This document shows positions 53,361-57,988 of a DNA stretch of 64,000 nt, piece by piece. Both the position numbers and the translations under genes were made by a program. The notes below the pieces were generated by a model that made no database searches, had not been told where the DNA came from, and saw nothing but the letters and a program-made list of their open reading frames with translations. Source of the stretch: Aurantiochytrium sp. KH105 (lineage: Eukaryota > Sar > Bigyra > Thraustochytrida > Thraustochytriidae); NCBI GenBank assembly GCA_003116975.1, contig BGKB01000010.1:372001-436000 (forward strand), written 5' to 3'. The stretch's first letter is position 1. The number at the start of each line of letters is the position of its first letter.

Positions 53361-55790
53361 ATGGCGCTCGAGGAGGAGGACAGCGAGGATGACCAAGGCC
53401 CCGTGGGACTACGGCAGCTCTTCGAGATGAGCCTGCCTGAGGTCGAGCTGCGCCAGAGCTTTTGCGTGAGGCCTCTGGGAAGGCGGCACAGGCAGCGATC
53501 AGGTGCGCAACAAGGTAGCGCAGACGATGACGACGACGACCAAGAAGAAAACCTTGACGACAAGGTGGAAATTTGCGACGCAAAGGGAAACACGTCGGCA
53601 ACCGAAGCTGAGAATGACGACGACGTCCTCGATGCCCAGGAACTTGACATCCGCGTCCTCTGCGCGGAGATGGACCAAGGCTCGAGCTGGCAGTCTGGAA
53701 AGTTCCTCTGGCCTGCGGCGCGAGCGCTTTGCGAATACCTCGGAAGCGACGAGTTCGCCTTCGCATCGCACGCACGAAAGGACCGCATCACACGGGTCAT
53801 GGAGCTTGGTGCCGGCGCGGGACTCGTAGGTATCTTTCTGGCGCGGCTCCAAGCACGGCTGCATCGACGCCGCGGCTACGTGGTTCTCACCGACCGCGAC
53901 CCATTCCTGCTCGACATGATTCAGCGAAATGCGGCAAAGAACGCCACAGATGGGCCGATGCTGCCTGTCGAGACAGCAGAGCTGAGTTGGGGCGCCGACG
54001 ACCCAAGTCTGGACGCCTTCCGTCGCAAATACTCGCGCCGCCCCTTTGATCTCATCGTCGGTGCGGACCTCTTGTACTCGACTGAGGTCGTTGCCTTGGT
54101 TTTCGAGACCGTAGACCAACTCTTTCGCCACGCCGAGGGACGCGGGGTCTTTGGCCAATTCGTGCTGTGCTCGAGTTTTCGAGTACAGGAGACATCGGAT
54201 CTGATCTGTGGACACTGTCGGCGACTTGATCTTGAGCGTGAGGTGCTTCGTGACGAAATTGCAAACGGCGGTGTGATCGTGGAGCGCTTTGTGCGCGCTG
54301 CGAGTGCCATGGGGTATGTTCAAACCGATCACTCGCTCAGCCATGCGCTTCGTAATCTCAAACGGGACGAGTACGGTTTGTACGCCCGCATTCAATCGAT
54401 CCACGCCGACGCAAACTTTGTGGAGCGTACCTGCTCACAAACCTTTGGCGCTGCGTTGCCCGTATTTGCAAACCTGCGCAATGGTGCATGGTATACGCGG
54501 GCAGATGGCTGCTACTTTAAAAGCACTGACGGCCACGTTGCAGATCCTACGTTTGCAGCGAGACGACTCAATACGAACGTGCTACGCGCGGCCTGCAGTG
54601 CAAAGTCAGAGGGTGCTTCTGCTCTTGGGTTTCTTCCGAGCGAATACCGCGGAGGAGCAATTCTCGTTGACGCCACGCGAAGAGGAAAACGCTTTCCCGA
54701 CGCGTTCACCCGGACGGTGCCCATTTGGTGCTTTGTACTCAATAGGGTTGCGGGACATGACAGCGCAGTCTTGGACTTGCCGCCATGGGTCTCTGACTCT
54801 GAGCGTAGCGCACTTGAAACCCGCTATGAAGAATGGATGGCGCTTGTTCCAGCGCCGGCGCGCGAGGTAATCCATACTCTGCTCGCCGAGAGACCCCCTC
54901 TGCGGCCTGTGTGGGTGTGTTGCGACACCAAGCAAGACTGGAATGAGGATGCTCGATGCACGGAGCTCACTTTGCCGCTTGTCAATCCCGAGGCGCCGTG
55001 CACACCAATAATTTGCTTGAGTGCCTCCGTAGCCATTGACGCCGAAACGGAGCGAATTTTTCGACGGTCTTGGCGTTATATCCCCGGAGCTGGTGACGAC
55101 CACGAAATGTGGGCTGGTTTACTGTCCCCAGAACTGTTTTGGTCTCATCGGCAGACGCTCGTGGAGTGTCAGAGTAATGAGGAATGCGAGCAAGTCTTGG
55201 AACACATCGCTTCTGGGGTGCTTGCGTCTGATGGCGTCGAGCGCGGAAATGTTGATGCAACTGAATTCGCATCGTCCGTGCCTGTGGAAGGCGCGCAGAC
55301 GATGCTCGTGCCTGTGGTGCTTGCCGTCGATGACAATTTTGTCAATGAGCTTGACGCGGATAGGCACGTGCTGATCGACCTGCGAGGTTCGGAGCAGAGC
55401 GCGCTCGATGGAAAATGGGAATCCGCTCTACCTGCTTCGCAGACACTTGTCCTTCGCGCAAGCGCAAAAGACTTTGTCCAGCGCCCATTCTGGCAAACTC
55501 GCTGTCTTTTGCCCGCATGTTCACTGCTCTTGAGTGCACGCTCAAATAACCTGACATGCGTTGTTCGCGCAGCTCCTATGACAACCGAGCGAGCGACGTT
55601 GGCGACAGCATTGTCGTGCATGGGCGTTGTGTCGGGCACCGAAGACATCAAGGCTGAGGTGAATGCTTCACTCTTTCGCGTCATGGAGGCTGCAGGGAAA
55701 CGTCTTCCTCAGCCCCCGGCGCGCAAGCTGCTCAAGAATGTGATTGTATTTCTGCATGACCAACGGAGAATGCAAGGAACTGCTTTATAA
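53361..55790 (+). CDS. METTL21/FAM86-type methyltransferase fused to Rit1 tRNA ribosylphosphate transferase
   Basis: The 809-residue protein appears to combine two enzymes. Residues 90-300 form a class I SAM methyltransferase of the METTL21/FAM86 (MTF16) group: WQSGKFLWPAARALCEYL, motif I VMELGAGAGLVGIFL (about 146-160), then VLTDRDPFLLDMIQRN and FDLIVGADLLYSTEV. Relatives methylate lysines on eEF2, eEF1A, HSP70 or VCP. From about 360 to the end it matches Rit1, which adds 2'-O-ribosyl phosphate to A64 of initiator tRNA-Met and keeps it out of elongation. Key blocks are FANLRNGAWY, DGCYFKSTDGH (about 380-388), ILVDATRRGKRFPDAF, PIWCFVLNRV and PGAGDDHEMWAGLLSPELFW. A C-terminal phosphatase-like region (HVLIDLRGSEQS) completes Rit1. 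The ATG at 53361 has a good context (GAAGATGGC) and begins an acidic leader. The upstream open extension is rejected. Confidence 0.93.
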   Translation: MALEEEDSEDDQGPVGLRQLFEMSLPEVELRQSFCVRPLGRRHRQRSGAQQGSADDDDDDQEENLDDKVEICDAKGNTSATEAENDDDVLDAQELDIRVLCAEMDQGSSWQSGKFLWPAARALCEYLGSDEFAFASHARKDRITRVMELGAGAGLVGIFLARLQARLHRRRGYVVLTDRDPFLLDMIQRNAAKNATDGPMLPVETAELSWGADDPSLDAFRRKYSRRPFDLIVGADLLYSTEVVALVFETVDQLFRHAEGRGVFGQFVLCSSFRVQETSDLICGHCRRLDLEREVLRDEIANGGVIVERFVRAASAMGYVQTDHSLSHALRNLKRDEYGLYARIQSIHADANFVERTCSQTFGAALPVFANLRNGAWYTRADGCYFKSTDGHVADPTFAARRLNTNVLRAACSAKSEGASALGFLPSEYRGGAILVDATRRGKRFPDAFTRTVPIWCFVLNRVAGHDSAVLDLPPWVSDSERSALETRYEEWMALVPAPAREVIHTLLAERPPLRPVWVCCDTKQDWNEDARCTELTLPLVNPEAPCTPIICLSASVAIDAETERIFRRSWRYIPGAGDDHEMWAGLLSPELFWSHRQTLVECQSNEECEQVLEHIASGVLASDGVERGNVDATEFASSVPVEGAQTMLVPVVLAVDDNFVNELDADRHVLIDLRGSEQSALDGKWESALPASQTLVLRASAKDFVQRPFWQTRCLLPACSLLLSARSNNLTCVVRAAPMTTERATLATALSCMGVVSGTEDIKAEVNASLFRVMEAAGKRLPQPPARKLLKNVIVFLHDQRRMQGTAL

Positions 55791-56074: not shown

Positions 56075-57394
56075 TCATGCGGGTTCCATCGCAGAGTCTG
56101 TCTGCTGGGGCTCTTGTTGTTGTTGTTGTTGCTGTTGTTGTTCGGCAGGCCGTGTTTGGAGGCAAGATGGACAGTTGTGCAAGGTCTCGTGAATGAATTG
56201 TTCGCAAACGTCGCAAATGAAGGCCTGGCAGCGCGGACATTGGTAAAAAGCGGACACCGTAGGTCCCTTCGTGAACGAGATAGCGCAAGCGCTGCAGGCT
56301 GGAGCAGACGTTTGCTGATTCAATACTTGGGCCATTTTCACCTCGCGGAAACGCGGCACAGGGAAGAGATGATGGTAGGATCGCGAAAGGTGCGCCGAGG
56401 CAATGAGCTCGAGATCGCATATTGGGCAGTCTGTAGGAAGCTCTGTGACTACTGTAGAGCATCTCGGACAAGCGTAGCCCTTTGTCGTAACATCGTTGAT
56501 GTCGGCAGCCATGGCCTTGCCAGCGGTGACCGCATGGCCAGACACCAACGTACGACCATCTTGCGCGTCGCTCGAGCCTGCTGCTGTGCACTGCGAGGGG
56601 AAGCCCATTCGCACAAACGTACATCGCAGACCTTGTTGGTCTTCAGCAAGCGCGGGCGCAGGCGGCACATGACTTTGCAAAAGCTGACGAAAGTGCTCCT
56701 TGCTGGTGATGACGGCGTGTCGGCCCAAGGTCTTTTCCGCTAGGTATTTGGCCACATAGATCTCGGCAGAGAGACCAATGACAGAACTATGAACCTTGGA
56801 TCGCTGAAGTTTTTCGATCGTTTCAAAGACATCACCTTGATCGCAGGTGCTGAGTGAGGACATGAGCACGAGAATTTCGCGGCTGCCGTGCTGCGGAACG
56901 CTCTGAAGCGCGGCATGCGCGAGTTCGAGTCCATTTTGTAGGGAGAACTCTCCTCCCTCGGAGAGCATGCCGAGGGCTGCCTGATGGCGCGTGGCGCTGG
57001 CAGACATGTCGGTGAGCTTTTGCGCGACGCCATCGCGCGACATGACAATACACAGGTTGCTAAGAGGATTTTCGTCAAAGTACGAGAGGATAAAGTCGTT
57101 CAAGAGCTCTGAAGTGACGACGCGTCGCGAGGGACGCAAGTCGCTCTCCGCCATGGATTGCGACATGTCCACGATCAGCACCAGGTAGCGGATCATGTTG
57201 CGGCACAGAGTGCCGTCGGGGCCAGACAATCTCCTGGAGCCACCTCTACCCCCGAATCCGGGCCCATTCGCGTCACCATCGCCGCGACCCCCGTTGCCGG
57301 CGGCACCAGCGACGGTACGCAGCACGCCGTGCTCATCTTCTTGCAAGGCCTCCCAGCTTCGCGCGAGGTTGGTCTCCCACGCGTACCCGGACAT
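56075..57394 (-). CDS. SSL1: TFIIH core subunit p44 / Ssl1 (GTF2H2)
   Basis: The 439-residue subunit of TFIIH works in RNA polymerase II initiation and nucleotide excision repair, where it binds and stimulates the XPD helicase. A Ser/Gly-rich N-terminus precedes a von Willebrand A-like domain starting MIRYLVLIVDMSQSMAESDL, with the DxSxS-type motif. Further blocks are RRVVTSELLNDFILSYFDEN, REILVLMSSLSTCDQGDVF and VIGLSAEIYVAKYLA. A zinc-binding C4 motif (YACPRCSTVVTELPTDCPIC) and a C-terminal C4C4 RING (CSACAISF, YQCPRCQAFICDVCEQFIH, NCPSC) complete it. It ends in a poly-Gln run (about ten) and EPQQTDSAMEPA, which the human protein lacks. Start 57394 (MSGYAWETN) is chosen by family length; the frame is open upstream to 57856 because of a 66-base in-phase duplication. 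Confidence 0.96.
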   Translation of the reverse strand: MSGYAWETNLARSWEALQEDEHGVLRTVAGAAGNGGRGDGDANGPGFGGRGGSRRLSGPDGTLCRNMIRYLVLIVDMSQSMAESDLRPSRRVVTSELLNDFILSYFDENPLSNLCIVMSRDGVAQKLTDMSASATRHQAALGMLSEGGEFSLQNGLELAHAALQSVPQHGSREILVLMSSLSTCDQGDVFETIEKLQRSKVHSSVIGLSAEIYVAKYLAEKTLGRHAVITSKEHFRQLLQSHVPPAPALAEDQQGLRCTFVRMGFPSQCTAAGSSDAQDGRTLVSGHAVTAGKAMAADINDVTTKGYACPRCSTVVTELPTDCPICDLELIASAHLSRSYHHLFPVPRFREVKMAQVLNQQTSAPACSACAISFTKGPTVSAFYQCPRCQAFICDVCEQFIHETLHNCPSCLQTRPAEQQQQQQQQQEPQQTDSAMEPA

Positions 57395-57988
57395 GTGTCT
57401 GCCCGATGAAGCGGACGTAAAGAATGGATCGCGCGTACGAGCGAGCGACTCGGGCCAGGACGCGCGTGCTCCTACCTCGCGGCGCAGCGGGCAGACGTGC
57501 GGTTTCGCTGACCTTTTCCCGGCTGCGACACCGCGCTTTGCCGGTGGAGATTGAAGATTGGTGTTGCTGCTCGTTGAGGATAACGAGCTACGGGCTGCCG
57601 GTGGGGATGAAAATGAAAAGATGAAGATGAAGACGAAGATGGACCAAAGAGCAGGAGGGATTTTGGCTTCGTTAGGCCTTGCTGTTATGAAGATGCAGAC
57701 GAAGATGGACCAAAGAGCAGGAGGGATTTTGGCTTCGTAAGGCCTTGCTGTTATGAAGATGCAGATGCAGACGAAGATGTTAATGAGACGATCAGGAAGC
57801 AAGGCGAAACCAAAATCGCCTCCAACACTGGGGGAAACGAATAAATCAAAGCACAAAAATTACACTTCGTTGTCTGACAGTGAGACTGGTTGGGTTGAGA
57901 GACACAAGAAAGAAACAAATAAGACACATCCACACGAAAAGAGAAGAGAAGTGAAGAGAAGTGAAACAAAGCAATGTCTCTTTTTTTC
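57395..57988. other. Ssl1 upstream region with 66-bp duplication
   Basis: About 590 bases between two minus-strand genes. It contains the tandem duplication listed next and GAAGATGAAGAT-like flanks. From 57800 on it is AT-richer, the 3' flank of the kinase gene. No gene recognised. Confidence 0.55.
57631..57762. repeat. 66-bp tandem duplication
   Basis: Two adjoining copies (57631-57696 and 57697-57762), starting AGACGAAGATGGACC, identical except for one base (GTTAGG against GTAAGG). A third partial start follows. The near-identity points to a recent event. Confidence 0.95.

Follow-up and report, generated by a model that had tools for sequence, protein, structure and literature searches.

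The fusion gene and its second copy

The window, a stretch of 64,000 nucleotides of Aurantiochytrium sp. KH105 that lies on contig C10 of the assembly that we searched (76,034,492 bases in 367 contigs), carries a single open reading frame in which Pfam profiles recognize a methyltransferase domain followed by the transferase domain of Rit1 (Table 1). The original prediction had placed these two activities in one polypeptide, which was borne out by an open frame of 809 codons matching both PF10294 and PF17184 and by recurrence of the same fusion on contig C81; the motifs that it had quoted (FDLIVGADLLY, CYFKSTDGH and GAGDDHEMW) are all present in the translation. The methyltransferase fold probably extends past its profile match, to about residue 330; its last part could not be aligned to family members, and its final strand may overlap the first Rit1 residues. 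Convergent to the fusion gene lies an ordinary gene (56078-57460, reverse strand) for an Ssl1-like TFIIH subunit (PF04056, E 4e-62) with a C1-like domain.

Table 1. Features of the fusion gene and initiator-type tRNA loci; coordinates without a contig name are positions in the window.
Feature	Position	Strand	Basis or remark
Fusion gene	53361..55790	+	809 codons plus TAA; ATG at 53361; intron not required
N-terminal extension	53361..53630	+	acidic low-complexity stretch; without Pfam match
Family 16 methyltransferase domain, residues 109-257	53685..54131	+	PF10294, E 6.3e-19
W117, at the first of the two conserved Trp columns in family 16	53709..53711	+	alignment, Trp in 18/18 rows
W210, at the second of the two conserved Trp columns in family 16	53988..53990	+	alignment, Trp in 18/18 rows
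D236-L-L-Y239, the [D/E]XX[Y/F] motif of family 16	54066..54077	+	alignment
Internal in-frame ATG, residue 317	54309..54311	+	16 residues upstream of the Rit1 profile match; same codon in the second copy
Rit1 transferase domain, residues 333-616	54357..55208	+	PF17184, E 1.5e-62
C-terminal 193 residues, position of the DUSP-like domain of Rit1	55209..55787	+	without PF04179 match; dN/dS 0.14
Initiator-type tRNA clusters of four genes	G000:C72:179600-181400; G000:C149:2000-3900		same mature sequence, C64, unusual D-arm

A second copy of the gene, at G000:C81:61456-63876, has the identical fusion, is free of stops and shares 98% protein identity with the first. Because the flanks of the two copies align as well, over 1,500 bases on each side, they are probably two haplotypes. 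Inside the frame the copies differ in length by only two single codons, both in the N-terminal extension, with no gaps around the junction. Upstream of position 53361, by contrast, they are separated by many gaps, and neither has an in-frame ATG in the part of the frame that stays open there (621 bases in one copy, 99 in the other), all of which favours 53361 as the start.

Across the whole gene the copies differ by 71 substitutions, 51 of them synonymous and 20 nonsynonymous (dN/dS 0.119). The ratio was 0.086 for residues 91-300, 0.10 for the Rit1 transferase domain and slightly higher, 0.14, for the C-terminal residues 617-809. For residues 290-400, which contain the junction, it was 0.119, a value resting on few changes (5 synonymous and 2 nonsynonymous) between two copies that give no date for the fusion. 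With a ratio of about 0.12 and no gaps across this interval, the junction looks constrained as protein.

These comparisons bear on whether the fusion is an artefact, in which a sequencing error has merged two genes or a cryptic intron lies between them. Three donor-like words occur within 54241-54480; the frame is nevertheless equal in the second copy despite the substitutions that separate the two, and the junction is gap-free, which makes an artefact scarcely credible. The assembly error at the junction against which the original prediction had cautioned is likewise unlikely, given the second copy and the pattern of substitutions across the junction.

The junction also holds the internal ATG at 54309, a possible start for a stand-alone Rit1. 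It lies just ahead of the first Rit1 profile position, its codon is identical in both copies, and its context, gccATGg, is one that we take to be favourable for initiation. Rit1 might thus be made also, or only, from this ATG through a second promoter or leaky scanning, or arise by processing, with the fusion accounting for part of the product. Against such a division, no stop separates the halves in either copy, so that the methyltransferase alone would need alternative polyadenylation, splicing or cleavage, and constraint is similar across the junction. We consider it unlikely that the gene yields two proteins in this way.

The Rit1 half and the initiator tRNA

The Rit1 half matched PF17184, the N-terminal domain of Rit1, with 211.9 bits against a curated cut-off of 27 and over profile positions 1-269 of 271. 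A search of the 76 Mb assembly with this profile, which works exon by exon and scores its best candidates, returned two rows, both of them the fusion copies, and found no separate Rit1 gene. Rit1 comprises two domains in Pfam, the transferase and a C-terminal DUSP-like domain. PF04179, the DUSP-like profile, gave no match to the last 196 residues of the fusion at E up to 10, and none of its 7 rows in the assembly at that threshold fell at the fusion gene. The fusion resembles Rit1 of fungi and plants (tRNA A64-2'-O-ribosylphosphate transferase) in holding a nearly complete PF17184 domain, but differs in placing it behind a methyltransferase and in having a C terminus that PF04179 does not recognize; of the full Rit1 originally described, the transferase domain stood and the DUSP-like part found no match. 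None of the solved structures matched the Rit1 half at E up to 10, and two single-sequence structure models were of low confidence (mean pLDDT 38.5 and 35.0), with no usable model of the C-terminal fold.

Elsewhere in the assembly, two frames of 239 and 242 codons passed the PF04179 cut-off over profile positions 14-61 of 114 (at G000:C46:143013-143156 and G000:C86:144526-144669). This pair probably represents ordinary DUSP-type proteins and not a separate C-terminal half of Rit1.

No relative of the fusion or of Rit1 was confirmed in viral contigs, phages or a set with one genome per prokaryote species, collections that hold few or no eukaryotes. Chance pattern matches in these collections failed tblastn, and one motif match (L082), a 149-codon ORF in which no other Rit1 motif was seen, was set aside. 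In the open-licence literature, covered by titles and abstract openings, no report of a methyltransferase-Rit1 fusion was found among the matches listed.

Rit1 is the classical means by which fungi and plants bar initiator tRNA from elongation. The initiator has A64 in yeast, G64 in plants and fission yeast, and U64 in vertebrates, in which we know of no Rit1. The enzyme attaches phosphoribose to initiator tRNA, at the 2'-OH of A64 or G64 (PMC7694415), and this mark prevents eEF1A from binding the tRNA (PMC11301382). Of the four phosphoribosyl ribonucleosides, all of which have been made by chemical synthesis, just those of A and G are named in the part cited here as natural in tRNA (PMC6269823).

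To our first initiator pattern, which used the D-arm typical of other eukaryotes, the assembly contained no match. A pattern of anticodon and T arm found four identical tRNA-Met(CAT) genes, and the 12 rows of a similarity search with this initiator-type tRNA, every one of them 100% identical to it, correspond to the four whole genes and to eight halves of four further genes. On each of the two contigs concerned, two of the genes are intronless and the other two are interrupted after position 37 by an intron of 35-39 bases, and ARAGORN in intron mode, given one of these contigs, agrees with the intron reading. Features of the tRNA that count as initiator traits are A1-U72, successive G-C pairs in the anticodon stem, A54 and A60; its D-arm differs from the usual initiator form, which speaks somewhat against a textbook initiator.

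The T stem of this tRNA, GGCGG/CCGCC around a 7-base loop, makes position 64 a C, paired with G50 in 8/8 gene copies found; the numbering was also taken from the drawn structure and from an Rfam tRNA alignment of one copy. The A64 site assumed in the original prediction is thus replaced by C64, and a purine at position 64, a property of the host tRNA and not of the protein, occurred in none of the initiator-type genes reachable by pattern and similarity searches, which a strongly divergent initiator would escape. In this respect the organism differs from the fungi and plants with Rit1, whose initiators have A64 or G64, and a Rit1 gene beside a C64 initiator is unexpected from the published pattern. 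Either Rit1 acts on a pyrimidine in this organism, or its substrate is another.

With up to one mismatch allowed, an intronless elongator tRNA-Met pattern matched in 22 rows but never exactly; four of them are initiator genes and one lies on C366. A distinct intron-bearing CAT tRNA with T54, present on C25 and C163, accounted for six of seven pattern rows (the reversed control pattern gave two). We read it as the elongator tRNA-Met(CAT), although ARAGORN labels the C25 copy (G000:C25:347040-347190) as Ser(TGA).

The methyltransferase half

The methyltransferase half belongs to family 16 by its profile, matching PF10294 (Methyltransf_16) with 68.8 bits against a curated cut-off of 21. It retains the family hallmarks, namely both tryptophans and the DLLY motif, in an alignment with members from the same genome, whose 17 other rows were drawn from 34 loci filtered by motif and likeness and include some genes repeatedly. 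Among solved structures the closest was METTL21B (EEF1AKMT3), at E 2.5e-9 over fusion residues 105-278, followed by 7oas (E 5.9e-8), presumably a plant protein, and then by METTL21A, C and D. The fusion shares the two tryptophans and DLLY with the METTL21 group but differs from it in its long N terminus and attached Rit1. The fused domain is METTL21-like by sequence, but METTL21A-D scored close together (26-40 bits), with neither an ortholog nor a substrate to be read from such near-equal scores. An NCBIfam search returned weak generic methyltransferase matches only, none near its cut-off.

The original prediction had called this half METTL21/FAM86-type, of which the family assignment and the likeness to METTL21B stand, and the kinship with FAM86 finds no support. 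EEF2KMT (FAM86A, 8fzb), also a family 16 member (PMC5324768), reached only E 0.13, far behind METTL21A-D, and the FAM86 N-terminal domain PF14904 was absent from the Pfam matches of the fusion and was not found in the assembly, in a search that likewise had no match in the control genomes and so no positive control.

The family 16 profile gave 52 rows in the assembly, mostly both copies of each gene and with the two fusion copies included. Other genomic matches to the fused domain had 25-42% identity over parts of it (12 of 14 rows), which means that no recent duplicate was seen. Two weak family 16 matches (G000:C56:307744-308082 and G000:C27:316062-316400) lie inside frames of more than 5,700 codons that match one part of the PfaA profile repeatedly, as in a large polyketide synthase; PUFA-synthase-type profiles had matches in the assembly, none of them above the curated cut-off, and 11 of 14 control genomes match too.

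Family 16 enzymes are characterized by the [D/E]XX[Y/F] motif, an invariant active-site tryptophan and a second conserved tryptophan; the known ones methylate proteins, and several act on eEF1A or eEF2 (PMC5324768). METTL21B methylates Lys165 of eEF1A, and substrates elsewhere in the family include HSP70, VCP and calmodulin (PMC10238732); chaperones, calmodulin and a ribosomal protein are all among the targets of the family (PMC10238732, PMC5324768). The fused methyltransferase might instead act on RNA, methylating the initiator tRNA near or on the phosphoribosylated nucleotide, as its attachment to an enzyme of initiator tRNA and the unusual C64 site would suggest. This we judge very improbable, since family 16 enzymes are known as protein methyltransferases (PMC5324768) and the fused domain keeps the hallmark residues of that family.

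A predicted bifunctional enzyme

In the most likely reading, which we hold tentatively, the fusion gene is real and its product is predicted to be a bifunctional translation-modifying enzyme. The Rit1 half would take phosphoribose from PRPP and place it on nucleotide 64, here C64, at the 2'-OH; the initiator tRNA so marked would be unusable by eEF1A. The other half would be a METTL21-like lysine methyltransferase with a translation protein as its acceptor, eEF1A being the leading candidate because METTL21B, the nearest solved relative, acts on eEF1A and because Rit1 keeps eEF1A off the initiator tRNA. One polypeptide would in this way set two marks that affect the sorting of initiator from elongator tRNAs, and the fusion may co-localize the two modification steps.

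Domain scores far above their cut-offs, the occurrence of the fusion in two copies, the retained hallmarks and the failure to find another Rit1 all count in favour of a bifunctional enzyme. Counting against it are C64 in place of a purine, the undetected PF04179 domain and the internal ATG that could give a stand-alone Rit1, and the close METTL21A-D scores together with the varied family 16 substrates weaken the case for eEF1A as the acceptor. The coupling of initiation and elongation controls that was originally proposed fits the known roles of both families, while the methyl acceptor is one that we infer.

Gene fusions can be functionally neutral, and it is a serious possibility, although we lean away from it, that the fusion is real but its activities are independent. 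The join would then be accidental and harmless, and the methyltransferase would act on a protein outside translation, for instance a chaperone. The variety of family 16 substrates, which include HSP70, VCP and calmodulin (PMC10238732), the similar order of the METTL21A, B, C and D scores, and the abundance of the fold in this genome are consistent with such independence. Set against it are the stop-free and constrained domains and junction in two copies, with which a neutral join is still compatible, and the finding of no separate Rit1 in the assembly.

A bolder form of the bifunctional enzyme, to which we give little credence, has the Rit1 half phosphoribosylating C64 to Cr(p) and the methyltransferase half marking either eEF1A or that same initiator tRNA; the two initiator-excluding marks would then both come from one polypeptide. 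Cr(p) appears in the cited part of the literature as a synthetic compound only (PMC6269823).

If the methyltransferase is indeed joined to the only Rit1 found here, the fusion indicates the pathway in which that methyltransferase is likely to act and, if true, offers a direct test of a link between elongation-factor methylation and initiator marking. C64 adds a sharp prediction, that this Rit1 tolerates a pyrimidine or has a different target. Two translation controls may thus be physically linked in this single-celled eukaryote.
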